From contig NZ_CP049264.1 of NCBI RefSeq assembly GCF_003048875.2, forward strand, positions 1,922,001 to 1,986,000: a DNA stretch of 64,000 nucleotides. Direction: 5' to 3'. Made by a program: the position numbers and the translations under genes. Source of the stretch: Campylobacter concisus (GTDB taxonomy: Bacteria; Campylobacterota; Campylobacteria; Campylobacterales; Campylobacteraceae). How positions within the stretch are numbered: position 1 is the stretch's first letter; every line of letters begins with the position of its first letter. The notes below the pieces were generated by a model, which saw only the letters and a list, made by a program, of their open reading frames with translations, made no database searches and had not been told where the DNA came from. This document shows, in pieces, positions 15,669 to 41,017 of the stretch.

Positions 15669-15714
15669 ATTTTATAACTATTAGGAGAAATTGTAAATTG
15701 TACCTAGGTACAAT
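15669..15714 (-). promoter_or_regulatory. promoter and palindromic operator of gene A
   Basis: A perfect 18-bp palindrome ATTGTACCTAGGTACAAT lies at 15697-15714. Exactly 20 bp further toward the gene is TATAAAAT (15669-15676), a sigma-70-type -10 element. This places the palindrome centre near -43 and gives a leader of about 30 bases. The same geometry precedes genes D, E, F and G. Nothing else is recognisable in the 312-bp gap between genes A and B apart from B's terminator. Confidence 0.8.
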
Positions 15715-15917: not shown

Positions 15918-15946
15918 AAATTTAGACCCAAAAAGGGTCTAAATTT
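15918..15946. terminator. terminator of gene B
   Basis: A 12-bp stem AAATTTAGACCC / GGGTCTAAATTT with an AAAAA loop. It overlaps the last base of the gene B stop codon. Similar hairpins end genes C and D. Confidence 0.85.
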
Positions 15947-18900
15947 TAAAGATCGACGTGGATGTTTTCTTTCACATCGATATAAGCTGTAGTTGTGCCG
16001 TAATTCGCTTCATATCTTTCAAAGCCCTCTACTGCATTAGCAGCAGATTTACTAAAGCCTTCAAGTTTTACTCCGCCACTTGCCTCGGTTATTTGAAGCA
16101 AATTATTACTATGTTCGTGTCCGACATCAAGCATATCAGCTATATCAAGAGCTTTTAGAGTGACCTTTTCATTGCTAGTAACCTTTAACTCTTCAAAGCT
16201 CTTAACCTTTGTAAAGTCTATCTGACCATCAACCAAAAGCGTATCGTGATCATAGCGACTTCTATTGTCTGAGTATCCACCAAGAATGCTAGTGCCACCC
16301 TCAAGCTTCATATCTTTAGATATAAAGACACTATCACTGCCATCCGATAGATCTATTTTAATATTAGTTAAGCTTCCAGATCTTAGCTCCAAATAATCTT
16401 TTGCATTTTCATGTCCACTCAAAATCCAGTTCGCATGGTGTTCAGCTGGCAAACCACTAGCTGATGCGTGAGTATCTTCAACTACCACATGCATTTCATT
16501 TATATAAGCCATGATATCTACATCTTTTAGGGTAGATGACTTTAAATTTATATCTGTATGATAAGTTTCTCCAAATGAAGGGACTCTACTGCCTCCATTT
16601 AGTTCTACATTATCAAGGTTTGAGCTATCTATATTTATAGTACCTTTTGATGATCCTGCATAGATCGCACTTTTTTCTGCTGATGTTGTTGAGTTAATGT
16701 CAGTGTATTTGATATTTATAACGTCTTCATCGCCTTTAATTAATTCATTACTAACCCATTGTATGGCACCATTAAACTTATTAGCATTAGTGCTTATGTG
16801 AATATCTGTCATTTTTACATGATCAGCTTTTGTACCTGTTATATTTAAGATATCGCTGTTAATGCCAAGATAGATGGTCTCTTTGTTAAAAACTCCACCA
16901 TTTATATTTATGACGTCATTGCCAAAGCCTGCATTGATCTCAACTTTTTCGTGTGTTCCGCCATTTATATTTATAGTATCGTTCTCGTTACGGGTGTCGA
17001 TAGTGACATTATTTAAATTTGAGTTATTGATTTCAACCTTATCTTTTCCAGTATTAGTTCTAATATCAAGCCAATTTAAATTTGAACTATTGATATTGAC
17101 CTCAGTGTCTCCAGAGTTACTATATACTTCACTAAAATGGATCTTACTAGGTTCTTCTCCTTCTTTATGACTTACGGTTGCATTGTTGAAATTTAAGACA
17201 TTATCTCCATTTTGAAGATACTCTACATCAAAGCGTTTGTCGTTGTGAAATTCGCTATTTACAGTTGTTATATGGTCATTATCTATGATGCCACCCTCAT
17301 ACGTATATTTAGCGTTATCTATACTAAATTCTAAGATCACACTCTCGCTGTAGTAGTGATTGTTTTCAACGCCCTTATCTGCATCTTTAAATAACTTTTC
17401 TTTATCCCAGCTCTCATAAAATTTTTCACTATTTTCAGACAAAAGCTTGCCTTCATTTAGCTCTTTATCGTCTATTACATTTGCACGAACAACTACTTTG
17501 TTGATATCGCCCGCTCTTAGACCTTTTATGACGCCACTACTATCTAGGTCTATCCAGTTTTCATTATCAAGTGAGTACTGAATTTTATCGTAGTCTTTGC
17601 CGTAAGTCGCCTCTCCACTAAATTTAAGCTTCACATCGATTTTTTGATCCGCGTCAGCCTCTGCCACTTCACCCCTTAGCTCAAATATTAAATTGTTATG
17701 TTCCCACATATTCGATTTTTCATGGTTTTCGATCTGAAAGCCTCGTTTGCCATATATGCCTATGTCTTTTACATATTTTGAGTCGTATTCATTTATATAT
17801 TCTGGCTCTGGATCAGGCGTAGGCTGTGGTTCAGGTTTTGGCTCTGGTTGCGGAGCTGGTTCTGGTTTTGGCTCTGGTTTAGGCTCAGGTTGTGGAGCTG
17901 GATTTACAGGCTCGACTGGCTCAATAGGAGTAGGCTCTGGCTTAGCACCAAGATCGACATTGATACCATCTTTTACATCTATATAGCCTTTCTCCGTATA
18001 AGATCTACCGTTATTTTGAAAACCAAAGTCGGCCTCATATCTTGTAAAGCCTTCTTTTAAACCTCTTCCATACTCTGAAAGCTTAAAGCCTGCTAGCTCT
18101 ACTCCGCCAGCTGCCTCTGTAACTGTCAAGATATGTTTGCTATCATTATTTTTAATGTCAAGCATATCATATAGATCTTCTAGTTTTAGGCTGACCTTCT
18201 CTTTGCCAGTCACTTGTAGCTCTTCAAAGCTCTTAAATTTATTAAAATCAACATTACCATCTATCACAAGCGTATCGGTTTTGTAGTCAGTACCACCATT
18301 TATCGCAGTGTAGCCATTAAGCTTCATATCCTTTGTGACGATGACTTTATCTTCGCCGTTGCCAAGATTAACCGTCATATCGTTTAATGTGCCTGATCTT
18401 AGCTCTAAAGTATCATCTGTATCTGCAAAATTCCACTTTGTGGCATTTTCTGGGTAGTTGCCATTTATCTTTGTATCTTCAACTACTACGTGAGTTTTGT
18501 AGATAGTGTTGAGATTTACATCATCTAGGGTAGATGATTTCAAATTTAGATCGAAATTTAGTGGGTTTCTATTTACATCGGTACCTGTGTTTGTCTCTGT
18601 ACCTATGTTGATACCTTTTAAATTTGAGTTTTCAACATTTATGGTGTTGTTTTTCGCCTCTGCCTCGATGTGGTTGGCTGAATTTTTATATGTTGAGTCG
18701 ATATCAGCGTATTTGATATTTATCTCATCTTTCTCGCCTGAGCCAGTTCTTAGGTACATATCTGTCATTTTCACATGATCATCTTTTGTGCCATTTAAAT
18801 TTAATACATCGTTTCCGCTATCAAGCGTGAAGCCACTTTGATAAGGATCGGTGCCTATGTAAGTTCCGCCGTTTAAATTTACAGTGTCGTTGTCTGCACC

Positions 18901-20415
18901 AGTTTCGACGTGAAGTCTTTCGTGTCTTCCACCATTTATATTTATGGTGTCATCTCCGCCTTGGGTGTTGATATTTAGCCAGTTTAAATTTGAGTTATCG
19001 GCATTGATGGTATCTTTACCTTCATTAAGATAGCTGCCATCGCCAAAGACTATAGTGCTAGCCACGTCACCAGCTTTGTGGTTTATCGTCGCATCTTTGA
19101 AATTTAGTGTATTGTCGCCATTATCTTTAAATGTAACGTCAAAAGATTTATCATTATTAAACTGGTTATTTACAGTGATATCATGATCATTATCTACTAT
19201 TTTTTCGCTATTTGATGCTTTTAAGCCACCTATGCTAACTTCTAGCGAAACGCTCTCTTTAAAGTAGCCATTGTTTTCTACGCCCTTATCTACATCTGTG
19301 AAAATTTTCTCTGATGTGTCAAGTGTGCCTTCATTTTGGTCGTGATCGTTTGCCACTTCAACACGCACGCTTACTTTATTTATATCGCCAGCTCTTACAT
19401 CTTTTATCACGCCACTATCATCTAGCTTTTGCCAAGTTTTACCACCATCTAGCGAGTACTCTGCATTTTCATAGTCTTTGCCAGCAGTTGCCTCTCCGCC
19501 AAATTTAAGCGTCACATCTACCTTTTTATCAGCATCAGCCTCCGCTACTTCACCTTTTAGGTTGTACTCTAGGTATGATTTGTCGTTTGAGCTTCTTGGG
19601 TCTGAACTCTTTTCGTAGCCAAATTCTGACTTATCTTCAACCGAGATATTTTTAACTATATCTTTGCTCTCGTCAGGTTTTGGCTCAGGTTGTGGGGTCG
19701 GCTCTGGTTTAGGCTCAGGTTTTGGTTGTGGTTCTGGAGTTGGCTCAGGTTTTGGTTCTGGTTTTGGCTCCGGAGTTGGCTCAGGTTTTGGCTCCGGTTG
19801 TGGGGTTGGATTTTCTGGTTCTGGTTTTGGTTCTACTGGCTCAACCGGTTTAGGCTGCGGAGTTGGAGCTGGATTTTCTGGTTGTGATGGCTCAACTGGG
19901 GCTACAGGTGCAATGGCAGAATTTATATCACTATCTGAACCATCAAAAACATCACTACCGCCACCTTTTACCTCTTGGTTAGTTAGTTTTACAGCGCCAA
20001 AAGTATCTGAAAGTGATCTAAAGCTAGCTGATACATCAGAGCTTTCATGACCGCCATGCTCAAACCTTGTCTCGCCAAGGCTCACGCCGTCACCGCCTCT
20101 GCCACCGCTATTGCCACCAGCGGCACTCTCTTCGAGATTTGCTAAATTTTCACCTTTTAAAAGGGCTTTTTGTATAGCTGCTACCTCTTTGTCTGAGCTA
20201 AGGTCGTTATTTAAATTTAGAGTTTCGCCATCTTTTAGCTCAAACTCCTTGCCGTCGTTTGATGCGATAGTTACCTTTGCGCCGTTTGCTTTAACAACAT
20301 CGCCCTCGTATAAACTATCTCCCGCGACAACAACTCTTTCGTTGCCATTTTTATCTATAACTACTACTTCCTTGGAGCCAAGAATGTTTTTAATAACACC
20401 TACTTTAACAGCCAT
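15946..20415 (-). CDS. protein B: 1489-aa retention-module RTX adhesin with an internally duplicated body
   Basis: The start at 20415 (MAVKVGVIKNILG) has AAAGGAGG 5 bases upstream; an in-frame TTG 21 bases earlier is less likely. Residues 1-75 are the retention module and ESAAGG near 96-101 is the expected LapG site. The remainder is two homologous halves. Each has a Pro-Glu-Lys linker (PEPKPEPTPEP type), a Calx-beta-like domain (EVAEADAD..DVKLKF), RTX-like motifs (GGDDTININGG), and a type I secretion-like ending. The first half ends KGYIDVKDGINVDL at about residue 822, mid-protein. The second ends TAYIDVKENIHVDL at the true C-terminus. It probably arose by fusion or duplication of a C-like protein. 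The promoter lacks the palindrome found at five paralogs. Confidence 0.88.
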   Translation of the reverse strand: MAVKVGVIKNILGSKEVVVIDKNGNERVVVAGDSLYEGDVVKANGAKVTIASNDGKEFELKDGETLNLNNDLSSDKEVAAIQKALLKGENLANLEESAAGGNSGGRGGDGVSLGETRFEHGGHESSDVSASFRSLSDTFGAVKLTNQEVKGGGSDVFDGSDSDINSAIAPVAPVEPSQPENPAPTPQPKPVEPVEPKPEPENPTPQPEPKPEPTPEPKPEPKPEPTPEPQPKPEPKPEPTPQPEPKPDESKDIVKNISVEDKSEFGYEKSSDPRSSNDKSYLEYNLKGEVAEADADKKVDVTLKFGGEATAGKDYENAEYSLDGGKTWQKLDDSGVIKDVRAGDINKVSVRVEVANDHDQNEGTLDTSEKIFTDVDKGVENNGYFKESVSLEVSIGGLKASNSEKIVDNDHDITVNNQFNNDKSFDVTFKDNGDNTLNFKDATINHKAGDVASTIVFGDGSYLNEGKDTINADNSNLNWLNINTQGGDDTININGGRHERLHVETGADNDTVNLNGGTYIGTDPYQSGFTLDSGNDVLNLNGTKDDHVKMTDMYLRTGSGEKDEINIKYADIDSTYKNSANHIEAEAKNNTINVENSNLKGINIGTETNTGTDVNRNPLNFDLNLKSSTLDDVNLNTIYKTHVVVEDTKINGNYPENATKWNFADTDDTLELRSGTLNDMTVNLGNGEDKVIVTKDMKLNGYTAINGGTDYKTDTLVIDGNVDFNKFKSFEELQVTGKEKVSLKLEDLYDMLDIKNNDSKHILTVTEAAGGVELAGFKLSEYGRGLKEGFTRYEADFGFQNNGRSYTEKGYIDVKDGINVDLGAKPEPTPIEPVEPVNPAPQPEPKPEPKPEPAPQPEPKPEPQPTPDPEPEYINEYDSKYVKDIGIYGKRGFQIENHEKSNMWEHNNLIFELRGEVAEADADQKIDVKLKFSGEATYGKDYDKIQYSLDNENWIDLDSSGVIKGLRAGDINKVVVRANVIDDKELNEGKLLSENSEKFYESWDKEKLFKDADKGVENNHYYSESVILEFSIDNAKYTYEGGIIDNDHITTVNSEFHNDKRFDVEYLQNGDNVLNFNNATVSHKEGEEPSKIHFSEVYSNSGDTEVNINSSNLNWLDIRTNTGKDKVEINNSNLNNVTIDTRNENDTININGGTHEKVEINAGFGNDVININGGVFNKETIYLGINSDILNITGTKADHVKMTDIHISTNANKFNGAIQWVSNELIKGDEDVINIKYTDINSTTSAEKSAIYAGSSKGTINIDSSNLDNVELNGGSRVPSFGETYHTDINLKSSTLKDVDIMAYINEMHVVVEDTHASASGLPAEHHANWILSGHENAKDYLELRSGSLTNIKIDLSDGSDSVFISKDMKLEGGTSILGGYSDNRSRYDHDTLLVDGQIDFTKVKSFEELKVTSNEKVTLKALDIADMLDVGHEHSNNLLQITEASGGVKLEGFSKSAANAVEGFERYEANYGTTTAYIDVKENIHVDL

Positions 20416-20444
20416 CGCTGCCTCCTTTAAAATCAATTTGACAC

Positions 20445-22154: not shown

Positions 22155-25100
22155 TTACATTAATTCGTTTACATTGACATTTTGTATAGTAAGCGTAAAT
22201 GTCTGACCGCCTTCATTTACGTTATATACATATCCGTTGCTAATTTCAGTAGAAGCACCTGCTACTTCAGATGAACCCTCTGTAAATGTGCCAACACCTT
22301 TTACGCCTTTTACGATTAGCGATGTTGCACCTTCACCACCGACATTTTTTATGAAATTTGCGATATCAGACGCATGGAAGAACGTAAAGTCCTCATTAGC
22401 GTCTGACATATCAAGCACCTCAAAGCCACTTATCTTGCCGGCATTTGTCGTATTAAATGATGCGTCATGAACTTTTAGCGTATCTATGCCATCGCCTCCA
22501 TTTATAGCAGTGCCATTTAGGCTTACGTCCTTGCCAAGATCGACTAAGTCATTGCCGTCGCCACCTGAAAGGTAGGTGTTGGTTAGTGTCACGTTATCAG
22601 CTATATTGATAGTGTCGTTGCCTTTGCCTGAGTTGATGTTTGATGCATCGTAGTCATGCGCAGCTTCGCCTGCAGCTGGACTTAAATTTACACTTGATGT
22701 GCCAGTTAGATCAGCGTTGATATTTATCGTATCGTCTCCGCCTTGAGTGAAAATTTTAACATCAGTATTATCATGAGTGCCAGCTCCGATAGTCACGCTA
22801 TCGCCGTCATCTGCGGTATTTATAGTAACCCTTCTAAGCTCAGCGTTATCGATAGTCACGGTTTTTACGCCAGCATTTCCAACGCCTGCACCCTCTATGT
22901 TTGTATCAACTAGACCAGTAGCTCTTGCGACATTTAGCGTTACGTTGCCATTTTCAAGCATGATGTTTGAATCCACCATAGAAACATCACCATCGACATT
23001 TACACGGTCATCTCCGCCATTTGTGTAGATGATAGCCTTGTCAAATGAGCTATTTCCAGAGACGTTAATAGTGTCATTTCCGCCGCCTGCACCGATATAT
23101 GTGCTATATCCATCGTTTGAGATCATGGTGACATCTTTTAAATTTATCTCATCATCACCATATCCAGTCTCAATGGCAGCGTTGTTAAATTTAGCGCCAG
23201 TAACATCTACGCTGTCTCTATCGTCACTTACTCCAGCATCAGCTGAGCTAGTGTTTATCTTAGTGTTTGAAATTTCAGCGCCTCTTTCGATAGTTAGTGT
23301 ATCGCGACCTTTGCCCATCTCTATGTAGTTTGAGTAAATTCCAGCTTGATTAGCTACTGGATTTGCCACGTGAGCTGGTGAGCTTATAGGGTCATTATGT
23401 GTGGCGCTATTATTTTTTATTTCAGTGCTGCCTTTGATAGTTAGACTATCATTGCCCTCACCTGTGTAGATATCCATGACATCTGCTTTAGTATCTTGAA
23501 GTACGATCTTATCATTACCATTGCCACTTTTTATTTCAGAGTTATATATGCCTGCACTGATGAAATTTAGCATATCGCCTGTGTCTGAGTCGCCTGTATC
23601 GATATCAACTCTCCTGATACTTGCGTCAGTTACATTTATAGTGTCGTCGCCCTCGCCTGTTTTTATAAAGCTATCAGTTCTGCTTCCTGCATACTCAGTC
23701 TCATCAGTTGTTCCGTTATTAGTAACGTAAGCATACATATCGCTTTTAATATTTACGGTGTCGTTATCAGCACCAGTGTCTATTTTTGTATTTTTTATAA
23801 GCTGATGATTATCACTTTTTTCGATATTTACAGTGTCGTTGCCACTTCCTGTTTTAAACAAGACATTGTCCAAAATCGTACTACTAAGGCTTGGACCAGA
23901 ATCATCTTTTATAGTAAATACATCATTGCCATCGTGGCTTGTAAATCTTGTATCTGTTATAACAGTTCCATTTATATTGAGTGTATCTTGATTTTTCTCT
24001 CCACCAGCGTTTCCAAGGTCTATCCTAGTGTTTTCTACAACAGCATCTTTTCCAGTATTAAACACATCGTCGCCATCGCCCATTTTTATAACATCATTGG
24101 CATTTTCTTTTAGATCATATAACCCACTTGAAAAATAGACTTCCTCTTTTATAGTTATCGTATCATCACCATCTTTTGTGTCAATGATAGTTTTCATAGT
24201 GTTGCCATTGTCTGGGTCAGAATTTACAAGAGCAGGGTTTAAGCCCTCTGTAGATGCATCTATATTTTCTGTGATATTTATATTGTCATCATTATCGATG
24301 ATCTTGCCCTCAGCCGTGCCAGATGTGATAGCAGCGTTGTTTGTAGTCACGCTAAGAGTTACACCCTCTTTATAAACGCCGTAGTCTTTTATGCCAGGAG
24401 CGATATTTGCGCCTAGATCCTCACTGCTTGTGCCCTCGTTTTGATTACCTGCTGTTTGACCGTAGTCGTCGATAACCTGCACTCTAACCTTTACATTTGC
24501 GATATCGCTTGGCGCGACGCCGCTTATCGTGCCACCATTTTGTATCGCTGTCCAACTATGTCCGCCATCAAGTGAGTACTCCATAGCGTTTGAGTAGTCT
24601 CTGCTTGCACTTGCACCGCTTAAATTTAGCGTTAGATCAGTAGGTGTAGTTGAGCTTGTAGCAGCTGATAGGCCTAGGTTATAGACTAGATACTCGTTGG
24701 GAGTCGCCTCTCTTGCCTCGCCGCTACCTTCAAGCGATACGCTTAGTGCCACAGGGGTTGCTGGAGTGACTGGAGTAGCTGGAGTAACCGGTATTACAGG
24801 GGTTACAGGATTTGTTGGGCTTGCTGGGTTTTGCGGTGCAACATTATCGTTCTCGCCATTGTCGCCATTATCAGCATAGCCGCCGATTGGGCTATTAAAA
24901 GAGTCAAAAGCTCTATTTGCATCAGTTAAATTTCTAAAATTTTCATTGATATTTGCGTAGTGGCCACCCTCAGCAAAGCTAGCTGCGCCTAGACTTACGC
25001 CATCTCCGCCAGCACCGCCAGCTGCTGCATTACCACCAGCAGCTGTCTCTTCAAGATCTGTAATGTTTGCGCCATTTAAAAGAGCGTTTTGAAGCGCTGC

Positions 25101-25355
25101 AACCTCTGGATTGGCACTTTGTGCGTTTGCCGCCTCTTTTGGATCAAGTGAGATAGTATCTTCGCCTACTATAGAGACTTCCTTGCCGTCATTTGCAGCG
25201 ATGACTACCTTCGCATCAGCTGAAGTTGTCTTTATGCTCTCGCCCTCATACAAGCTATCGCCAACTTTTAAAATTCTTTCGTTTCCACTTTTATCGACTG
25301 CGATCACTTCAGTTTGACCTGAAATTGATTTTATACTTCCTAGTTTTGCTGCCAT
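22155..25355 (-). CDS. protein D: 1066-aa retention-module RTX adhesin
   Basis: The start at 25355 (MAAKLGSIKSISGQ) is preferred over the ATG 6 bases upstream, because AAGGA lies 5 bases before it and abuts the earlier one. Residues 1-75 are the retention module and ETAAGGNAAAGG near 103-114 holds the predicted LapG site. A Pro-Thr-Val linker (TPVIPVTPATPVTPATPV) follows, then a Calx-beta-like domain (DLTLNLSGASASRDYSNAME), then about 550 residues of RTX-like units (GDGDDVFN, GEGNDSLTIKG). The C-terminal domain (FEVLDMSDANEDF to NVNELM) is the most diverged of the family but keeps the same layout. The body is clearly related to protein G. Confidence 0.88.
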   Translation of the reverse strand: MAAKLGSIKSISGQTEVIAVDKSGNERILKVGDSLYEGESIKTTSADAKVVIAANDGKEVSIVGEDTISLDPKEAANAQSANPEVAALQNALLNGANITDLEETAAGGNAAAGGAGGDGVSLGAASFAEGGHYANINENFRNLTDANRAFDSFNSPIGGYADNGDNGENDNVAPQNPASPTNPVTPVIPVTPATPVTPATPVALSVSLEGSGEAREATPNEYLVYNLGLSAATSSTTPTDLTLNLSGASASRDYSNAMEYSLDGGHSWTAIQNGGTISGVAPSDIANVKVRVQVIDDYGQTAGNQNEGTSSEDLGANIAPGIKDYGVYKEGVTLSVTTNNAAITSGTAEGKIIDNDDNINITENIDASTEGLNPALVNSDPDNGNTMKTIIDTKDGDDTITIKEEVYFSSGLYDLKENANDVIKMGDGDDVFNTGKDAVVENTRIDLGNAGGEKNQDTLNINGTVITDTRFTSHDGNDVFTIKDDSGPSLSSTILDNVLFKTGSGNDTVNIEKSDNHQLIKNTKIDTGADNDTVNIKSDMYAYVTNNGTTDETEYAGSRTDSFIKTGEGDDTINVTDASIRRVDIDTGDSDTGDMLNFISAGIYNSEIKSGNGNDKIVLQDTKADVMDIYTGEGNDSLTIKGSTEIKNNSATHNDPISSPAHVANPVANQAGIYSNYIEMGKGRDTLTIERGAEISNTKINTSSADAGVSDDRDSVDVTGAKFNNAAIETGYGDDEINLKDVTMISNDGYSTYIGAGGGNDTINVSGNSSFDKAIIYTNGGDDRVNVDGDVSMVDSNIMLENGNVTLNVARATGLVDTNIEGAGVGNAGVKTVTIDNAELRRVTINTADDGDSVTIGAGTHDNTDVKIFTQGGDDTININADLTGTSSVNLSPAAGEAAHDYDASNINSGKGNDTINIADNVTLTNTYLSGGDGNDLVDLGKDVSLNGTAINGGDGIDTLKVHDASFNTTNAGKISGFEVLDMSDANEDFTFFHASDIANFIKNVGGEGATSLIVKGVKGVGTFTEGSSEVAGASTEISNGYVYNVNEGGQTFTLTIQNVNVNELM

Positions 25356-25382
25356 TTTCATCCTTGTTAAATTTTTTCTCGC

Positions 25383-30238: not shown

Positions 30239-30304
30239 CGTTTTCCTTTTGTAAATTTTGGCTTATTATAAGGGATGTTAGTTAAATTTGAGTTTTTAAA
30301 ATGA

Positions 30305-30324
30305 TTTGAGCCAAGCGGCTCAAA
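30305..30324. terminator. terminator of gene E
   Basis: 8-bp stem TTTGAGCC / GGCTCAAA with an AAGC loop, directly after the gene E stop; on the minus strand it is followed by a T-rich stretch. Confidence 0.8.
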
Positions 30325-30325
30325 T

Positions 30326-30862
30326 TTATGAAAGTTTATTTAGATCGTTATCGATCTCGATATATATCGTAGTTGCGTCAAAATTTGCATGCTCGTAAGA
30401 GTTATCTACTTTTAGCTCGTTTGAGTCAGATAAAATCTCATCATTTGCACTATGTTTGTCTGCTAAATTTTCACTGCTCTCAAGGCTATTTGAGCTATTT
30501 TCAGTCTCATTTGGCTGCGTTTTTGCAAACATATCTTCTACTTTTTCATTCATCTGATCAAGTATCTCAGCGTAGTTTTCTCCAAGAAGCGCTCTAAAAA
30601 GTGCATCAGTATCGATGCTATTTTCAGCGCTAGTATCAGCACTTACCACGCTACTATCAAGCCATATTGTGTCATATCCATTTAGAGATATGTCACTACC
30701 ATCCACTGCTGTGATAGTCACGCTCGCACTTTGACTCTCGCCTTTTATGCTCTCACCTATATAAACCTCATCATCTACGTTTAGAACTCTTACACGGTCG
30801 TTTTTATCTATCGCTATAACATCAGATGTGACGCTTTTTACCTTGCCGGCTACAGCTGCCAT
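30326..30862 (-). CDS. protein E: 178-aa miniature of the adhesin family, without repeats or LapG site
   Basis: Residues 1-70 (MAAVAGKVKSVTSDVIAIDK onward, with VYIGESIKGES and ISLNGYDTIWLD) align with the retention module of A, D, F and G. Where paralogs have an ALL-containing segment followed by TAAGG, this protein has LFRALLGENYAEILDQMNEK and no AAG. It then has an acidic Ser/Asn/Glu-rich linker of about 60 residues and ends FDATTIYIEIDNDLNKLS, matching the extreme C-terminus of protein F (TTIYIDVDNDINKQLV). It is an intact gene with its own operator, ribosome site (AAGGA) and terminator, so it does not look like a decay remnant. It might occupy the secretion pore without being cleaved; that is inference. 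Confidence 0.78.
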   Translation of the reverse strand: MAAVAGKVKSVTSDVIAIDKNDRVRVLNVDDEVYIGESIKGESQSASVTITAVDGSDISLNGYDTIWLDSSVVSADTSAENSIDTDALFRALLGENYAEILDQMNEKVEDMFAKTQPNETENSSNSLESSENLADKHSANDEILSDSNELKVDNSYEHANFDATTIYIEIDNDLNKLS

Positions 30863-30890
30863 CTTTATTCCTTACTTTTATTTTTGATTT

Positions 30891-30936
30891 ATTCTAGTGT
30901 TTTTTATTAAATTTGTATATTGTACTTTGGTACAAA
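30891..30936 (-). promoter_or_regulatory. promoter and palindromic operator of gene E
   Basis: ATTGTACTTTGGTACAAA at 30919-30936 keeps both TTGTAC/GTACAA arms. ACTAGAAT (hexamer TAGAAT) lies exactly 20 bp downstream at 30891-30898, 29 bases from the ATG. Confidence 0.8.
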
Positions 30937-30986: not shown

Positions 30987-31010
30987 AATTTGGGCTAAAA
31001 AGCCCAAATT
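30987..31010. terminator. terminator of gene F
   Basis: 10-bp stem AATTTGGGCT / AGCCCAAATT with an AAAA loop, immediately after the gene F stop. Confidence 0.85.
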
Positions 31011-34000
31011 TTATACAAGTTGTTTGTTTATGTCGTTATCCACATCTATGTAGATAGTTGTCGGAGTAGCTGAGCTTGTTTGACCCTCGTATCTTGTATA
31101 TCCAGCTTGAACACCAGTTTGATCTGTAGCCTCAGTAAATCCTTTTAATGAAACGCTATCTTTGTTGTCGCCACTTATTTTTAAGATAGTATTTACATCA
31201 TCAGTGATGCTAAATACATTATCCGCTTTTAAATTTAGTAGCTTAACAGCTTGATTGTCATTGCCATGCTCATCCATGCCAAGTTGGATCTCTTCAAAAC
31301 TCTTGATCGCGTTATTCAAGCCTTTGTTGTCTATCTTATCAAAGTCGATAGTGCCATCCTTTGCCACTGGACGCATGATAAGCGTATCTGTGCCAGTGCC
31401 GCCATCAAGGCTTTGAGATAGAGCTGCTCTTGGATTATCAAAAGTAAATACAACCTTATCATTGCCAGCGCCAGCATTTACTAGATCGCCTTTGTTCATG
31501 CCAGTATAGCCACTTCTGCCAGCGTCTATGTAGTCATTACCACTTCCTGTGGTTATAACGTCGTTGTTGTCACCAGTGATGATTACATTGTTGCCGTTGC
31601 CTGTGCGAATTTCATTTTCACCACGTCCTGCATTGATCACGTTGTTTCCATCTCCAACGTTGATGATGTCGTTACCTTCACTTGTTGTGATAACGTTATT
31701 GTTGTCATTATCTGCAACTACTCTTGTATTTTTAGCGATATCAGAAACTTGTAGATAGACATCGCTTGATTTTACATCGCCGTTAAATACAGCTTCGAAA
31801 TTTCCATTGTCATCAAGCGTTACAGAATTTGCAGCTATGATGTGTCCATTTGCATCTCTTAAAGTGATGCTATCTTTTAGAGCTATACCTTTTACCGCCT
31901 CTTCAAAGTGTTGTTTTAGCGTATAGCTTGCACCAACTCCATTTTCACTTAAATTTCCACTCCATGTGGTTTTATCTGTAGCTGCATCGTAGCTTAAATT
32001 TGAGTCTTTTATCGTTGCAGCTGTTGCGTCGATCGTAAATTTAATAGAGTTGTAAAGTAGCTCATCTCCACCTTGATATTTACCATCGATAGAAATTTTA
32101 TAAACGCCATCAGCCATTTTGCCAGCGGGATCAAGTCTGTTGTTATAGCCTGTAAGTCTATTGTAGTGATCAGGCGTTACATTGCCTATCGGTTTTTCTA
32201 TCGCTTGAGATAATAGATCTTTTGAAACACCTTTATCAACGTTAGTTGCTACAAATCTAACATCGCCAGTGCCCCATGTTATGCCTCTGCCGCTATTTAA
32301 AAACTCACTTACAGTTTGATTTTGGCTAGCATTGCCAGCTGTTGCATCTTCTGGGATCACAGCTCTTAGATATGGGATAGCGTCGTTTGAAACGATCCTT
32401 GAGCCATCAGCTCTAAGGCCACTCTCGCTCATCTCCATAGTGCCCCACAACTTCTCAGCTGAGCGGTTATTTGCATTTGTAGTTGTGTCATTGCCGTTTT
32501 CAAACTGCGTCATAGTTGGAACTAAAATTTCATTTACATGAGTATATTTTGTACCAGCTTTATCAGTCATCTCAACTTCGATCTTATCGCCTAGTTTTAT
32601 CTTGTGATCGTACTCAAAGCTTAGCACACCATTGGTTGGTTTAGTTGTGCCAACAGAGATTACGTTAGTATTTCCATCAGCTGTTACGATTTTTATACTC
32701 TCGATCTTATCGCCATCCTCATAGTTTTTGAGGTTAAAATTGATCGTATGGTGTAGCCCCTCATTGTCATTTTCGATGATCTTGATGTTTTCTATAGTAA
32801 CTGGTGTCTTATCAACCACAAAATCACTCACTACCGTACTACTTGTCTTGTTCTCGCCATTTTCAAAGATAGCAGTTGCTTTGATCTTGTAGTTGCCATC
32901 CTCTAAGCTATCAGATGTGACTTCAAATTTACCATTTGCAAATTCACTTTGGCTAAGCTCTTTTGTAAAGACTTCGTGTCCATTTTTATCAAGCACAGTG
33001 ATGATCGCTTTAGTTGCACTACTATCTATGCTACCTGTAAATGTCGGAGTTTTGTCGCTTAGCACTGGTAATGGCGCGTTGGTTGAAAATTTATCAGTTT
33101 GAGCGATGTCGTCAGTTGTAAATTTATAATATTTAGTTGCGTCATTTATACCTGTATTTGTATTCGCACTTACAATGCTTGCGTCATCATCGGTAGCGTC
33201 TATTAGGTCTGTGGCGACATTTATCTTAGCTGATGATGCCTGCGCCTCGTTACCTACAAGGTCGCTAACCTTTGCTGTATATGTAGCTTTTGGATCGCTT
33301 GTTCTAAACTCAACTTCATATTTGCCATCTACCACTTTAGCTGTATGGCTCTCACCTGTGCTTGACGTGACAGTTACGATCTGTCCGTCTTCTACATTAT
33401 CCACAGTTCCTGTGATCTTTTGAGTTACTTTATAGACATTTCTTGTTACTGTATCTACATAGCTGTCAAAGTCGGTTGAATTTAGTTTTATGCCACTTGC
33501 CTCCGAGCCAAGTATGCTCTCAGGTCCGCCATCTTTTGAAACTGTTAGTTTTAGCTTACCCCAAAAGATATAGTTTGCATAGCTCATATCAAAGTCATAG
33601 TAACCTGCTTTATCAACGTGTAAAGTTGTAACTGTGGCTCTATTTCCCGAGTGGATAGTGTCATAATCAACCATAGTAACGCCATCAACCTTAAATCTCA
33701 CGCTATCATCAGTGCCTTTTGCGTCAAATTTATAATCCCCTGGCTCAAGATACATAGTGCCTTTTAAATTTACCATCGCACCAGCTGTTGTGTTTTTGCC
33801 ATTAGGAGCATCTCTTACGATATGAATATCGCTACCTTTTGCGTTGTCGATAAAGTACTCAAGCGCTTTGAAATTTGGAGCTACCCACTCATTATTTGGA
33901 GTTACTACATTACCATCAAGATCGACCGTGCCTATCTTATTATGAGCGCCATCTAGTCCTGAGACTGTTCCAGCATCGCTATCAACATTATCTCTATCGC

Positions 34001-35153
34001 CGCCTTTACCTTGTTGGAAATTTAGCTCTTTTGCTTTAAAGCTTGCCCAAGGCTTAGTGTTGTTCATATAGTATTCGACAAAATCATTTTGCTTCATGCC
34101 GTTATGAGCGTATGTTGTATTATTAAAGGCATAAGGTCTTAGCTCAGTACCTCTTACGCCTTCTTCATAGATGTGGTTAAACCAGAAATTTCCTTTTAGT
34201 CCGCTACTCATCTCAGACTCTTTAACAAGGCTCATCTCGGTTTCAACGTTTATAGTGATCTTTGCAACTGTATCAAGCACAAAATTACCAGTATCGGTTG
34301 CAGTACTGCCGTCTCTTCCAGTTGCTACTACTTTTACTTCATAGTCGCCATCATGGCTACCATTTACGCTTAACTGATCAGTTGTAAATTTAAATTTACC
34401 ATCAGCATAATCGCTTGGATTTAGAGTTTTTGTAAAGACTTCGTGTCCGTCCTTGTCAAGCACGCTAACAACAGCTCTTACAGCAGTAGGCTCAACTGTA
34501 CCACTTATAGTTGGAGTAGCGTCATTTGTGCGAGGTACGCTTGGCGCGTCTAGGCTGTAATCGCCTTTTATAGTTCCAAAATCATCAGTTAAAGTTTTGA
34601 TATCAACACTGATTGGAGGTATAACTGGCGCAACAGGAGTTGCATTGCCTGCGTCATTGCCGTCATTGTAGCCGCCGATTGAGTTTTCTGGAGTTTGAAA
34701 AGCTCTATTTGAGTCAGGTAAATTTCTATAATCATCAGTAATGTTTGAGTAGTGACCACCCTCTTCAAAGCTTGCAGCACCTAAGCTTACGCCGTCTCCA
34801 CCAGCGTTGCCACCTTGGTTACCACCAGCTGCAGTCTCTTCAAGATCAGTGATGTTTGCACCATCAAGAAGTGCTTTTTGTATAGCGCTTACATCAGCTA
34901 CGCTATCGTCACCAAAGCTCTCATTGTGAGCTACGCTCTTGTCTAAATTTAGGGTATCTTTTCCGATGATCGCGATATCTTTGCCATCGTTTGCAGTTAT
35001 GACTACTTTTGAGTCAAAATCAGTTGTCTGTATAGTCTCACCAAGAAAAATTTCATCGCCTACTTTTAACACTCTTTGTGTGCCATCCTTTGCAGTTGCG
35101 ATTACATTTGCTCCTTGTGAGATACTTTTTATAACGCCTATCCTTGTTGCCAT
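31011..35153 (-). CDS. protein F: 1380-aa retention-module RTX adhesin with Ig-like and PA14-like domains
   Basis: Residues 1-75 are the retention module and ETAAGG at 106-111 is the LapG-type site. An Ig-like domain spans about 190-295. Residues about 317-550 form a PA14-like region: GLKGNFWFNHIYEEG at its start, then YLEPGDYKFDAKGTDDSVRF and HVDKAGYYDFDMSYAN. PA14 domains in other adhesins bind sugars. Two or three more Ig-like repeats follow, then a run of classical RTX nonapeptides near 1150-1230 (GDGNNVINAGRGENEI, GSGNDYIDAG), which should bind calcium. The C-terminal secretion domain ends IYIDVDNDINKQLV. AAGGA precedes the ATG. It is the only member of the array with a PA14-like domain. 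Confidence 0.88.
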   Translation of the reverse strand: MATRIGVIKSISQGANVIATAKDGTQRVLKVGDEIFLGETIQTTDFDSKVVITANDGKDIAIIGKDTLNLDKSVAHNESFGDDSVADVSAIQKALLDGANITDLEETAAGGNQGGNAGGDGVSLGAASFEEGGHYSNITDDYRNLPDSNRAFQTPENSIGGYNDGNDAGNATPVAPVIPPISVDIKTLTDDFGTIKGDYSLDAPSVPRTNDATPTISGTVEPTAVRAVVSVLDKDGHEVFTKTLNPSDYADGKFKFTTDQLSVNGSHDGDYEVKVVATGRDGSTATDTGNFVLDTVAKITINVETEMSLVKESEMSSGLKGNFWFNHIYEEGVRGTELRPYAFNNTTYAHNGMKQNDFVEYYMNNTKPWASFKAKELNFQQGKGGDRDNVDSDAGTVSGLDGAHNKIGTVDLDGNVVTPNNEWVAPNFKALEYFIDNAKGSDIHIVRDAPNGKNTTAGAMVNLKGTMYLEPGDYKFDAKGTDDSVRFKVDGVTMVDYDTIHSGNRATVTTLHVDKAGYYDFDMSYANYIFWGKLKLTVSKDGGPESILGSEASGIKLNSTDFDSYVDTVTRNVYKVTQKITGTVDNVEDGQIVTVTSSTGESHTAKVVDGKYEVEFRTSDPKATYTAKVSDLVGNEAQASSAKINVATDLIDATDDDASIVSANTNTGINDATKYYKFTTDDIAQTDKFSTNAPLPVLSDKTPTFTGSIDSSATKAIITVLDKNGHEVFTKELSQSEFANGKFEVTSDSLEDGNYKIKATAIFENGENKTSSTVVSDFVVDKTPVTIENIKIIENDNEGLHHTINFNLKNYEDGDKIESIKIVTADGNTNVISVGTTKPTNGVLSFEYDHKIKLGDKIEVEMTDKAGTKYTHVNEILVPTMTQFENGNDTTTNANNRSAEKLWGTMEMSESGLRADGSRIVSNDAIPYLRAVIPEDATAGNASQNQTVSEFLNSGRGITWGTGDVRFVATNVDKGVSKDLLSQAIEKPIGNVTPDHYNRLTGYNNRLDPAGKMADGVYKISIDGKYQGGDELLYNSIKFTIDATAATIKDSNLSYDAATDKTTWSGNLSENGVGASYTLKQHFEEAVKGIALKDSITLRDANGHIIAANSVTLDDNGNFEAVFNGDVKSSDVYLQVSDIAKNTRVVADNDNNNVITTSEGNDIINVGDGNNVINAGRGENEIRTGNGNNVIITGDNNDVITTGSGNDYIDAGRSGYTGMNKGDLVNAGAGNDKVVFTFDNPRAALSQSLDGGTGTDTLIMRPVAKDGTIDFDKIDNKGLNNAIKSFEEIQLGMDEHGNDNQAVKLLNLKADNVFSITDDVNTILKISGDNKDSVSLKGFTEATDQTGVQAGYTRYEGQTSSATPTTIYIDVDNDINKQLV

Positions 35154-35283: not shown

Positions 35284-38160
35284 TTAAGAGTGTAAGACTA
35301 TTTCGTCTTTTATCTCGATGGTAAATGTCGTACCATTATTATGCGTAGCTGAGTACTCTGTATATCCTTCAGAATTTACCCCACCTTTGCTAAAGGCTGA
35401 CATATCTACTTGATCGCCTGCCTCGCCATCTATCCTTAGAGTGCGGTTAGTGCCGTTGCCATTTGTGATATTTAGCACGTCATTTATAGTTAAATTTAGT
35501 GTTACGTTGTTTTCACTGCCACCAAGAGTAAGTTTTTCAAAGCCAGCTACCTTGCTAAAGTCGATATTTCCAGCAATATCTAGCGTATCAGTGCCTGCTC
35601 CACCCTTGATAGTTGTACCACTTCCCATTATTGCATCTTTTCCGATATGAAGTGTATCATCGCCACTACCTAGATCTATGCTACTAGTAGAATGCCAATA
35701 ATCAGGTGTGTCTTGTAGTTCTCCATTTAACTTTACATTATCATTGCCGTCGCCAGTATTTATTGTCGCAGCTTTTAAAACAGCGCCTTTGTCGATATTT
35801 ATAGTATCATCACCTGAGCCTGTTGATATGCTAACCCTTTGTTTAAAGGTATAGCCATCAGTACTGCCTGTAAATGTGCCTCCAAAGCTAGTTTCTCCAC
35901 CTATATTTATAGTATCAGCTCCGTCCCCAGTTTCTAAATTTAAACTAGCAGCACTGTTTTTACCCACGAAATTTATAGTGTTGTTGCCACCGCCCATGTC
36001 TATACCAGCACCTGAACCTTCAGTGCCATTGCCAAAAGTGTTGTTGCCATTAAATGTCAAAGTGTCATTTCCAGCATCAAATCTAAAACCAACTTTATCA
36101 TCCGTTTGGGTATTTGTAAGTGTTACAGCAGCATCTGAAAAGTAGTTTCTACCTTGATCGCCAACGTAATTTCCTATCTCGCCACCATGACTAAATAGTG
36201 CATGATCTATATTGATCTCTTTGCCATGAATACTTGAAGCACCTGTAAAAAGTATCTTATCGCTATCAGTGCCATTTATATTTACATGAGTTGCACTAAG
36301 CCCACCGCTATCACTAGCGCCTGTGTTTATAAATCTTGTCTTGCCATGCACATTTATCACTTGATCATTATTCAAATCAGCCATTTCGCCATTATAAGAA
36401 GAGTTATAAACGCCTATCGATGAGCCTATAAAGGTAGCGTCGTTTATATCAACCTTATCAGCTTCGTTTAACTTATCGCGATGCGTCAAGAAAATGTTTG
36501 TCTTTTCTATAGTGGCATTATCTATATTTATAGTATCTGCGCCTTTGCTAGCATCTATATTTACCCCACTTACGGTTGCGTTTTTGATATTTATCGCATC
36601 ATCGCCACCGCCAAGATAAAAAGAGCTATTATTTGTAGTACCTAAACCAGTGACATCTGCATTTATATTTAGAGTATCTTTGCCTGTGCTATTTTCATAA
36701 AAATCGAGACTTATATGAGCTTTGCCTAATTTCATAGCCTCATTTATATTTACAGTGTCATTACCCTCATACATATTGATACTTGCATGCTCATCGATAT
36801 TATCACTGCCAAATGCAATGCCAGCCTTATCAAAATTTACAATATCATCTCCATCATCGGTGTTGATTTGAGTGCCTTTTACGTTTGCTTTTATAGTTAC
36901 TGTATCATCTCCATCTAGAGTTTTTATACGGTAGTTGTTGCCATCTGTATAACTAAGATCGCTTGTTATCTCTAGATTATCATCATTGTCAATGATGTAG
37001 CCTTCGGCTCTATTTGCGGCTGTTGTTGGTAGTAGGTAGCTACTAGTTGGAGTGACGCTTAGACTTACACCTTCTTTATAAACGCCAAAATTCTCAACAC
37101 CTTGAGTGAGACCGTTTTTTACTGGGCTATTGTTATCATCTACACCATAAATTTCTGCTCTACTGCCTTCATTTTGATTATGATGGTCTAAATTTGCTTG
37201 TCCATAGTCGTCAAGCACCTTTATCCTTACTTGCACTTTTGAGATATCTTCTATATTTACGCCAGTTATCGTGTAGCCTGATAGTGGATGAAATGTCGTA
37301 CCATTGTCAGTCGAGTATTCAACCACGTTTGAATAATCCTCTCCTCTAGTGCCACCGAGGAAATTTAAACCTAGATCTGTAGTCTCACCACTTGGGCTTA
37401 CTGGTGTGCCTGATAGACCTAGTTTATAAACAAGATAGTGTCCGCCCTCGCCGTTTGCTCCTGCGCCGCTCTCTCTTACCTCGCTAGTAGCAGGATCGAT
37501 GCTAGTAGTGATCTCTACTGCACCAGGACGAGGCGTGATGACTGGAGGATTAGCAGGTGAAGGAGTGCCTGGTGTTACGGTGACGCCAGGAGTACTTGGA
37601 GTACTTGGAGTTGGTGGCGTTACTGGGGTACTCGGCGTGACAGGCGTAGTTGGTGAGATAGGAGTTGTCGTATCCGCATCTGTGCCTGCATCGTTATAGC
37701 CGCCTATTGAGTTTTCTGGAGTTTGAAAAGCTCTATTTGCGTCGGTTAAATTTCTATAGTTTTCATTGATATTTGAGTAGTGGCCACCCTCAGCAAAGCT
37801 TGCAGCTCCCAAGCTCACGCCATCTCCAGTAGCATTGCCACCTGCTGGGTTGCCACCAGCTGCAGTCTCTTCAAGGTCTGTGATGTTTGCGCCGTTTAGT
37901 AAGGCTTTTTGGATAGAGGCTATCTCTGGGTTGTCACTAAGTGCATTTGCCTCTTTATCTAGGCTTAGACTTTCGCCGTTTTGCAAGCTGACCTCTTTGC
38001 CGTCGTTTGCTGCGATCACTGCTTTTGCAGAGCCATTAGCCTTTATCGTTTCGCCTTCAAAAATGCTATCGCCCACCTTCAAGACTCTTTCGTTGCCACT
38101 TTTATCAACAGCTACGATTTCACCGCCTAGGATATTTTTGATAACGCCTAACTTTTGCAT
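35284..38160 (-). CDS. protein G: 958-aa retention-module RTX adhesin
   Basis: Residues 1-70 (MQKLGVIKNILGGEIVAVDK) are the retention module and ETAAGG at 98-103 is the LapG-type site. A Thr-Pro linker of about 60 residues (TPSTPVTPPTPSTPSTPGV) leads to a Calx-beta-like domain with GGTRGEDYSNVVEYSTDNGT. RTX-like repeats follow (GDGNDNVKLNG, GSGDDTLHIG), and the secretion domain (FEKLTLGGSENNVTLNLTIN onward) ends TIEIKDEIVLHS. Layout and linker type are closest to protein D. AAAGGGAGG precedes the ATG. It is the first gene of the array on its strand, next to the two-component genes at 38675-41017. Confidence 0.88.
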   Translation of the reverse strand: MQKLGVIKNILGGEIVAVDKSGNERVLKVGDSIFEGETIKANGSAKAVIAANDGKEVSLQNGESLSLDKEANALSDNPEIASIQKALLNGANITDLEETAAGGNPAGGNATGDGVSLGAASFAEGGHYSNINENYRNLTDANRAFQTPENSIGGYNDAGTDADTTTPISPTTPVTPSTPVTPPTPSTPSTPGVTVTPGTPSPANPPVITPRPGAVEITTSIDPATSEVRESGAGANGEGGHYLVYKLGLSGTPVSPSGETTDLGLNFLGGTRGEDYSNVVEYSTDNGTTFHPLSGYTITGVNIEDISKVQVRIKVLDDYGQANLDHHNQNEGSRAEIYGVDDNNSPVKNGLTQGVENFGVYKEGVSLSVTPTSSYLLPTTAANRAEGYIIDNDDNLEITSDLSYTDGNNYRIKTLDGDDTVTIKANVKGTQINTDDGDDIVNFDKAGIAFGSDNIDEHASINMYEGNDTVNINEAMKLGKAHISLDFYENSTGKDTLNINADVTGLGTTNNSSFYLGGGDDAINIKNATVSGVNIDASKGADTINIDNATIEKTNIFLTHRDKLNEADKVDINDATFIGSSIGVYNSSYNGEMADLNNDQVINVHGKTRFINTGASDSGGLSATHVNINGTDSDKILFTGASSIHGKEINIDHALFSHGGEIGNYVGDQGRNYFSDAAVTLTNTQTDDKVGFRFDAGNDTLTFNGNNTFGNGTEGSGAGIDMGGGNNTINFVGKNSAASLNLETGDGADTINIGGETSFGGTFTGSTDGYTFKQRVSISTGSGDDTINIDKGAVLKAATINTGDGNDNVKLNGELQDTPDYWHSTSSIDLGSGDDTLHIGKDAIMGSGTTIKGGAGTDTLDIAGNIDFSKVAGFEKLTLGGSENNVTLNLTINDVLNITNGNGTNRTLRIDGEAGDQVDMSAFSKGGVNSEGYTEYSATHNNGTTFTIEIKDEIVLHS

Positions 38161-38674: not shown

Positions 38675-39364
38675 TTATGCTTTTTCGCTCTTGGCGACTA
38701 AGATATACCCACTCTCGCTGATGTTTTTAAATTTAACGCCAAGCTCGCGTTTTAGGCGCAAAACGACATTTTGTATGGCGGCCTTACTCACCTCGGTGCT
38801 CTCATAGACAAATTCCTCTATCATCTCGTAGGTCACAAGCTTGTTTAGGTTGTAGGCAAATAGCCAAAATATCTTATTTTGCAAGAAGCTAAGGTATAGC
38901 TCGCTACCGTTTTTATAAATTTTCTCTCTTTTTAAATTTATACTTACCTCATCACTTAGGCGCACTAGCTTCTCATCTCGCTCAAAGCTTAGGCTTATCA
39001 GCATCGATCTAAGATCCTTTATATCGATAGGCTTTTTCAAAAATAAGGTCGCCCCCTGCTCATAGCTCTTGATCAAATTTTCATCGCTATCATACGAGGT
39101 AAAGACGATAAATTTCTGATGAGGTTTTAGCTTTTTTATCTCGTTCATCATCTCAAAGCCATTTAACACTGGCATGTGAATGTCGCTCATCACGATGTCA
39201 AAGCCCTGTTTTTTAAATTTCTCCAGCCCATCTTGCCCATCTTTTGCGCCTACGACTTGACCACAGTATGGCTTAAGCCCAGTGATGATGAGCTCTCTTG
39301 CCATCTCGTCATCTTCAGCTACTAAGATAGATACTTTTTTTAAAATTTCTAACGCCTCTTGCAT
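38675..39364 (-). CDS. two-component response regulator, OmpR/PhoB type
   Basis: This 229-residue protein has a receiver domain with acidic residues Asp18 and Asp19, phospho-acceptor Asp61 (MSDIHMPVLNG), Ser90 and Lys111 (LKKPID). The C-terminal 100 residues look like a winged-helix DNA-binding domain (VTYEMIEEFVYES, AAIQNVVLRLKRELG). It lies 3 bases after the histidine kinase gene and will be co-translated with it. AAAGGG precedes the ATG. OmpR-type regulators usually bind direct repeats, so it is not the obvious ligand of the palindrome in the neighbouring array, although location makes a link possible. Confidence 0.9.
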   Translation of the reverse strand: MQEALEILKKVSILVAEDDEMARELIITGLKPYCGQVVGAKDGQDGLEKFKKQGFDIVMSDIHMPVLNGFEMMNEIKKLKPHQKFIVFTSYDSDENLIKSYEQGATLFLKKPIDIKDLRSMLISLSFERDEKLVRLSDEVSINLKREKIYKNGSELYLSFLQNKIFWLFAYNLNKLVTYEMIEEFVYESTEVSKAAIQNVVLRLKRELGVKFKNISESGYILVAKSEKA

Positions 39365-39367
39365 CTT

Positions 39368-41017
39368 TTAACCCTTTAAATTCTTATCAAAGCTTAGCTC
39401 AAAAATAGTTGGCTTTAGGTTGTGCGCAAGCGTGATGTCGCCATTTAGCTTATCACGTGCTAGCTTTTTAGCAAAGTAAAGTCCTATGCCATTTCCTTGC
39501 TTTTTAGTCGTGTTTAGCCAGGTAAAAATTTTCTTACTCATCTCGTAGCTCACGCCGCCGCCACTATCATAAACGCCGATGTAGCACTTATCTTCAAAGC
39601 TTCTAAATTTTAGCTCTATGACGCGTTTTAGCGGCTCATCTTTGTAGCTCTCAACTAGTGAGTCCTTTGCGTTGTGGATTAGGATTAGCAAAATTTGCTG
39701 GATGATGTTTTCTATCTGACAGACCTTCATCTCTTCAAATCCGCTAAATTTCACGCTTACATTTGCACGGCTAAGCTCTGTGTGCATAAGTGTTATTAAA
39801 TTTCTAACGCTTGTTTGGATATCAAATTCGCTCACATTTTCAGCGCTTTTGTAAAAATTTCTAAAAATTTCGATTGTTTTTGAAAGTAGTTCGATCGAGC
39901 TTTGCCCTTTTCCTAGTAAATTTACAAGCTCCTCATCGCTTAGCTTGCCCTCTTTTTTTAGCATTATCGCCGAGCTTAGCATCAGTTTTAGCGAATTTAC
40001 TGGCTGGATAAACTGATGACTTATGCCACTTATGAGCTCTCCAGCCTCGCTCATCTTGGCTCTGTGCGCCAGCAAGGTCTCGTACTCGTCTTGCACCTTT
40101 TTTATCTTGTTATACATGAAGTTGTGCAGGCTGTTTGCCAAAAATGCAAGTGCGACGAAGGCAAAGAGTAAATTTAGGGCGTTTTTTAGCGCCTCTCTTG
40201 TCATGGCTAAAATTTCTTCTTCGTTGTTTGTGCCAGCTCCGATAAACCAGTTCATCGTCGGTATCTCGGCTACTTGGATCAAATTTTGCCCTATCTTTAG
40301 GCTAGTGATGTCCTCATCTTTTAAAAATAGCTCCTTAAATTTCTCCTCGATCTCTCTTTTAAGCGTCGCATCAGCCATCGATGTGAGGATCTCGCCGCTG
40401 TGAGTTACCAAAAATGAGTAAGAATTTGGCGCAAGACTAAAGTTTTTGATACTATCAAAGATAGTGCCTATTCGCACGACGCCGCAAAGTGCCGCCTCAA
40501 ATTTATTATCCTTTTCAACTGGCACGCATAAATTTAAAGTAGAGTCCTTTAAAATTTTGTGATTTTGCATGAAATTTACGCTTGGGGCATTTGTATTTTT
40601 TGTCTCGACATACCAGATAAGCCCCGCTCGCTCGCGCTTTGACATCACCTCTTCTGAGATCTTTTGCCCATCTACAAAGATCTCGCCATCCTCTCTTAAA
40701 AGCTGCATGAGATCAAATTCTTTCGCATTTTCTTTAAAGAGCTTTATGAAATTTGCCACCCTAGTATCGTCATCTATGATGCCAGAGTTTTGGATAAATT
40801 TTGACGCACGGATGAGTGAGTTTAAGCGCTCATCAAGCCAAATTTGAAAGTTGCTAACGATGTTTTTGCTAACTGCGATGTTGTTTTTATCAGATAGCTC
40901 GATGATCTTTTCTTTTGCTTTGTTGTAGCTATTTAGCCCAAGAAGCACGACAAAGAGGCTTGCTAGCAAGATGATCGCATAAATTTTAATATTTTGTGAT
41001 TTTAAATTAATACCCAT
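39368..41017 (-). CDS. sensor histidine kinase with periplasmic sensing domain
   Basis: This 549-residue kinase has membrane segments at about 11-29 and 281-300 enclosing a 250-residue periplasmic domain, probably of the Cache type (GEIFVDGQKI, GVVRIGTIFDSI, THSGEILTS). The dimerisation/phosphorylation segment contains His334 (GISHQFIQPVNSL). The ATPase domain has the N box Asn449 (IHNAKDSL), Asp484 (VYDSGGGVS) and GNGIGLYFAKKL at 508-519. It precedes its cognate regulator by 3 bases. The ATG lacks a close ribosome site, AGGA being 13 bases upstream, so initiation may be weak. The signal sensed is unknown. Confidence 0.9.
   Translation of the reverse strand: MGINLKSQNIKIYAIILLASLFVVLLGLNSYNKAKEKIIELSDKNNIAVSKNIVSNFQIWLDERLNSLIRASKFIQNSGIIDDDTRVANFIKLFKENAKEFDLMQLLREDGEIFVDGQKISEEVMSKRERAGLIWYVETKNTNAPSVNFMQNHKILKDSTLNLCVPVEKDNKFEAALCGVVRIGTIFDSIKNFSLAPNSYSFLVTHSGEILTSMADATLKREIEEKFKELFLKDEDITSLKIGQNLIQVAEIPTMNWFIGAGTNNEEEILAMTREALKNALNLLFAFVALAFLANSLHNFMYNKIKKVQDEYETLLAHRAKMSEAGELISGISHQFIQPVNSLKLMLSSAIMLKKEGKLSDEELVNLLGKGQSSIELLSKTIEIFRNFYKSAENVSEFDIQTSVRNLITLMHTELSRANVSVKFSGFEEMKVCQIENIIQQILLILIHNAKDSLVESYKDEPLKRVIELKFRSFEDKCYIGVYDSGGGVSYEMSKKIFTWLNTTKKQGNGIGLYFAKKLARDKLNGDITLAHNLKPTIFELSFDKNLKG

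Follow-up and report, generated by a model that had tools for sequence, protein, structure and literature searches.

Known control of LapA-type adhesins acts on their release, through LapD, LapG and c-di-GMP. LapG cuts these proteins within a [T/A/P]AAG motif that follows a helix docking on the protease, and the retention domain can contribute further LapG contacts in characterised systems (PMC13090378). In V. cholerae adhesin peptides, mutation of the di-alanine abolishes LapG cleavage (PMC6890996).

We analysed a window of 64,000 nucleotides from Campylobacter concisus, a bacterium of mouth and gut, that carries an array of such adhesin genes (A, B, D, F and G; Table 1). The genome has genes for a TolC-like protein, LapB, LapC and LapD as well as two LapG genes, with a type I secretion system (T1SS) operon at L038, and PF06035 was found in 45 of 48 genomes of the genus. 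The clade-1 T1SS cluster holds two LapG paralogs (L038:4876-5544 and 12244-12870); clade-2 genomes have one. Elsewhere in the same genome, at C1:1823556, a retention-module gene with one in-frame TAA is possibly a pseudogene or a phase-variable gene. A sequence-only reading of the window had singled out the short gene E as a miniature adhesin that keeps the retention module and the extreme C-terminus of the family and lacks the cleavage site.

Table 1. Gene E, its parts and control elements, and the neighbouring genes (positions within the window)
Feature	Positions	Strand	Description and basis
Gene E	30326..30862	-	178-aa non-cleavable mini retention-module protein; ORF, orthologs, dN/dS
Retention domain of E, residues 1-78	30629..30862	-	beta-rich; NF033682 match, 5ix9 by sequence and fold
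E residues 79-117	30512..30628	-	helix with ALLxG core, no TAAG; alignments, model, motif count
E linker, residues 118-158	30389..30511	-	disordered, variable, indels
E residues 159-178 and stop	30326..30388	-	adhesin-type C-terminus ending in TTIYIEIDNDLNKLS; presumed type I secretion signal
Ribosome-binding site of E, AAGGA	30868..30873	-	read from sequence; kept in 27/27 orthologs
Hairpin 3' of E, ATTTGAGCC-GCTT-GGCTCAAAT	30304..30325	-	possible weak terminator; read from sequence
Operator TTGTACTTTGGTACAA, palindromic arms	30920..30935	.	0 mismatches to TTGTAC-N4-GTACAA
Promoter of E, TATACA-17-TAGAAT	30891..30919	-	abuts operator; promoter scan
Long paralog F	31011..35153	-	1380 aa; TAAG at 107
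Long paralog G	35284..38160	-	958 aa; TAAG at 99
Long paralog D	22155..25361	-	1068 aa; TAAG
Long paralog B	15946..20436	-	SAAG; operator copy absent
Giant paralog A	4222..15633	-	3803 aa; TAAG at 100
Response regulator and dCache histidine kinase	38675..41017	-	Pfam, synteny; directly upstream of E, without F/G, in 19/27

E is a genuine open reading frame of 178 codons with an ATG start and an AAGGA ribosome site. The retention module attributed to it was borne out by profile, structure and fold. The NCBIfam model retention_LapA (NF033682) matched residues 5-79 with E=4.6e-5, which lies below its curated cut-off, a profile of E orthologs matched PDB 5ix9 (E=5.6e-7), whose depositors describe it as an anchoring domain of the cell surface, and the AlphaFold model of E superimposed on 5ix9 with a TM of 0.88 and an rmsd of 1.5 Å over 75 columns. 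In this model the pLDDT of the retention domain is above 90 up to residue 70, residues 85-114 are predicted to form a 30-residue helix, and residues 115-162 (pLDDT below 50) are predicted to be disordered. The tail that follows the helix has ~64 residues. Pfam gave no RTX or other accepted domain in E, and neither repeats nor an extender or ligand-binding region were present; a UCH match (E=0.04) was below cut-off and was disregarded. E and the similar mini proteins described below are free or nearly free of cysteine and have a pI of 4.05-4.72, as in the long substrates.

At its other end, E has kept no more of the adhesin C-terminus than the final ~20 residues, and the RTX repeats are absent. 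Scored against a profile of long-adhesin C-termini, this end reached 15.8 bits, a value that none of 1000 shuffles attained, so that E does carry the family's extreme C-terminus as had been claimed. Removing paralogs B, C and F from the profile left 15.4 bits (0 of 2000 shuffles as high), and the other C-termini of the background set that scored in E's range were those of adhesins only. We presume that this end is a type I secretion signal, which would make E competent for export; an exported E might block or reserve the pore. A mirror image of E is also present in the window: gene C (20575-21981, minus strand) encodes 468 aa with an adhesin-type C-terminus and no retention module, and its product would be secreted freely.

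The motif AAG occurred nowhere in the sequence of any of 27 E orthologs. By comparison, [TAPS]AAG is present near residue 100 in 33 of the 34 long retention-module N-termini that we examined; the remaining one has TATG. Loss of the cut site thus stands, but the segment in its place had been taken for an unrelated helix and is not wholly so: the helix that the paralogs have ahead of the cut site has an ALLxG core, which aligns across all six window proteins, and in E the scissile region alone is gone. Outside the counted set, two tandem long retention-module-like proteins of the same genome (L063, C1:1283000-1286500) also lack AAG. The missing site is therefore not unique to mini proteins, and non-cleavable long versions may exist too, judging from this pair.

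Placement of E under an operator shared with the long adhesins was confirmed, as an exact 16-bp palindrome abuts its promoter. Five genes (A, D, E, F and G) have the pattern TTGTAC-N4-GTACAA abutting the promoter, F's copy with one mismatch, and their promoters share a layout of -35 TATACA or TTTACA, a 17-bp spacer and -10 TANAAT, the -35 of G being poorer. With at most one mismatch allowed, the 2.03 Mb genome holds 7 sites, all upstream of retention-module genes (window positions 15698, 25412, 30920, 35214 and 38229, plus genes at C1:20756 and C1:1651716), and the pattern read backwards gave 0 sites across 48 genomes. The operator is the mark of a small regulon whose members, in this genome, are retention-module genes only. 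Operator and promoter, including the 17-bp spacing, are kept among orthologs wherever E is present, and in G025 the genome's only exact operator copy belongs to E. Other families of the order have the palindrome, or a close variant of it, in the interval that separates a luxR-type gene from a retention-module gene immediately beyond lapC (L066, L071, L072 and L091), which makes the luxR-type gene of the T1SS operon at L038 the likely regulator of the regulon. Clade-2 C. concisus genomes, at the place of the missing A-D array by ilvD (L055:4073), keep an exact operator and promoter; the arms of this operator are exact, its inner bases vary, and the 42-codon ORF that follows is a leftover of D or else a tiny gene missed by annotation.

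E is its own transcription unit, since F's terminator lies at 30987-31010. The sequence-only reading had credited E with a ribosome site and a terminator of its own; the ribosome site is there, whereas for the terminator we found a hairpin with a 9-bp stem and a weak T-run, and a terminator scan that requires a T-run did not call it.

We took as the C. concisus complex the 27 genomes with a thiD identity of 88% or more and found E intact in all of them. Loss of E in close relatives, which the sequence-only reading had named as a refuting observation, was not seen. E is under purifying selection, most strongly in the retention domain: between clades its dN/dS is ~0.2 overall and 0.07-0.09 in this domain; these ratios are approximate because between-clade dS is above 1 and near saturation. 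The linker is the most variable part and holds most of the indels, and ortholog lengths range from 170 to 190 aa. Conservation beside long paralogs, as had been expected, held for E itself and not for its neighbours: in 19 of the 27 genomes (18 of clade 2 and G025) the kinase-response regulator pair is followed by E and then thiD, with no long paralog between. Clade-1 genomes with the interval on one contig have long adhesin genes between regulator and E. Because so many genomes have E without an adjoining long paralog, E is the constant member of the site and F and G are variable, and a dependence of E on the neighbouring long array was rejected. The stretch between ilvD and E (27432-29487) holds a gene resembling those of DNA cytosine methyltransferases, together with a companion ORF, and in G027 the ilvD-thiD interval has other genes (glycosyltransferase- and sugar-epimerase-like), indicating a variable island. 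A plasmid search gave no match.

Searches with profiles of E and of the mini proteins, in a sample restricted to the phylum Campylobacterota, revealed at least four further lineages of non-cleavable minis in Campylobacterales. These minis are proteins in their own right (191-231 aa); they combine a retention domain with an adhesin-like C-terminus and contain no AAG. Minis at the plsY locus of three other Campylobacter species (G004, G041 and G045) each have the operator or a one-base variant. The remaining ones stand close to adhesin or secretion genes: in G137 the order is lapB-lapC-luxR-operator-mini, with lapG two genes further on, in G291 it is lapC-luxR-operator-mini-long adhesin, in G283 long adhesin-mini-lapG, and the mini of G124 comes right after a long adhesin. 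In plsY-type minis a similar AIL helix is kept and TAAG is replaced (e.g. LEETAAGG to IEEVTTES); the minis of family f20 have lost the LapG-docking helix too. What all minis share is a retention domain, a secretion C-terminus and the loss of the cut site. The C-terminal half of a profile of the G283, G137 and G124 minis matches long-adhesin ends of the same family (f20) with E values of 1e-9 to 1e-5; the Campylobacter C-terminal profile did not recognise the C-termini of the four f20 minis.

On the retention-domain tree the minis are scattered over several positions, and the G283 mini lies beside the long adhesin encoded at the same locus. The AU test rejected a single clade of all minis, and with it one origin for all of them (p-AU 1.5e-4); it did not reject an origin that E would share with just the G041/G045 type (p 0.20). 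The number of origins is uncertain, the domain being short and some branches long, and a single one is not supported. No mini was recognised in 18 of 48 genus genomes or in most f20 genomes, so that such systems do not require one. The f20 searches also returned FecR-like 146-aa proteins, first taken for minis and set aside for their Sec-like hydrophobic start and the absence of an adhesin C-terminus. Short ORFs in G006, G020, G024, G040, G042, G043, G046 and G047 were left uncounted, as they were affected by contig ends, runs of N or broken frames, or proved to be ordinary proteins with TAAG. Giant adhesin genes of f20 genomes (L096 and L097) are split near the 3' end, with the C-terminus on an overlapping out-of-frame ORF; the split is a frameshift, an assembly error or real.

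How might a bacterium benefit from a retention module that cannot be released? Our leading reading, to which we give a probability of roughly 0.45, is that LapBCE-type secretion has in E a mini substrate, conserved and co-regulated, which lodges uncut in the LapE-type pore and caps or rations pores. Exported C-terminus first, E would come to a halt when its retention domain meets the TolC-like pore in the periplasm, and its ~64-residue tail would span the tunnel. By tunnel geometry, such a tail is about the minimum for a tunnel of TolC length. As LapG could not cut E, the pore would stay occupied. With 178 aa to be made, far faster than the 1000-3800 aa of long adhesins, E would be at the exporters before them when the regulon is switched on, and would in this way cap or ration the number of pores displaying long adhesins. 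The independent recurrence of minis, some beside lapG or within a lapBC-luxR cluster, strengthens the notion that they have a role in the secretion system.

The same anatomy could serve LapG rather than the pore: as a pseudosubstrate, E would bind periplasmic LapG through its retention domain and the kept helix without being cut, lower LapG activity and stabilise long adhesins on the surface. LapG docking in characterised systems involves the helix ahead of the cut site (PMC13090378); E keeps the ALLxG core of this helix, and plsY-type minis retain the AIL helix where TAAG is replaced. This decoy is the main rival reading and a serious one for E, yet we hold it to be less likely, because f20 minis lack the helix, so that docking is not a shared property, and because a periplasmic decoy would not need an export C-terminus unless this were also its route to the periplasm. 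As the helix is lost in f20 minis and the other three features are common to all, exporter occupation is favoured over a LapG decoy as the general function; E itself could do both. Anatomy and a tail of about the length needed for a TolC-type tunnel would equally suit a protein that fills idle exporters to seal them or to stabilise the tripartite complex and leaves adhesin number unaffected, yet co-regulation with the adhesins suggests action during adhesin production and not in idle cells, which renders such a seal improbable.

We see very little likelihood that E reports exporter status to the adjacent kinase-regulator pair via the periplasmic dCache domain of the kinase. The order kinase-regulator-E-thiD is present in both clades, but the other minis are not beside such a pair, and where an E-lacking species has the regulator and thiD on a single contig, the two are far apart, so that the order may be historical. 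Finally, a retention module joined to a C-terminus is just what an internal deletion in a long adhesin is expected to produce, and E could then be a remnant on its way to loss. This is effectively refuted by the 27 intact copies, a dN/dS of ~0.2 across dS above 1, the preserved promoter and operator, and the repeated origins, each accompanied by loss of the cut site.

A retention module that is selected, co-regulated and recurrent yet not releasable implies that control also acts at a second point, be it pore occupancy or LapG supply. It raises the question of how a cell whose paralogs compete for a single exporter fixes its number of giant adhesins. We tentatively propose, with more doubt than conviction, that Campylobacterota repeatedly evolved non-releasable mini substrates that plug LapE-type exporters, an undescribed control of giant-adhesin number apart from c-di-GMP and LapG. 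Our search of open-access papers turned up no account of mini retention-module proteins occurring in nature.

Among known proteins, the LapA-type adhesins (LapA, MapA, FrhA, CraA and MpIBP; NF033682) resemble E in their N-terminal retention domain of the 5ix9 fold, their adhesin-type C-terminus and the presence of LapBCE-LapD-LapG in the genome, and E has its operator in common with its long paralogs. It is very likely that E works in the same export-and-retention pathway. In contrast to these adhesins of about 1000-5000 aa, E has 178 aa and is devoid of [T/A/P]AAG, extender and ligand-binding domains and RTX repeats; as the cut site and the extender are two defining features, E should not be called a LapA-type adhesin. 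FecR-like periplasmic proteins of 146 aa have weak profile similarity to the retention domain and differ from E in their start and C-terminus, as described above. If E were a decoy, its effect of less adhesin release would be similar to that of the periplasmic output domain of LapD, a LapG inhibitor; LapD, however, is an inner-membrane c-di-GMP receptor, and E has no such domains. Cleavage-site mutants of adhesins (PMC6890996) are likewise retention-module substrates that LapG does not cut, but these are laboratory constructs, whereas E is natural, short and conserved.
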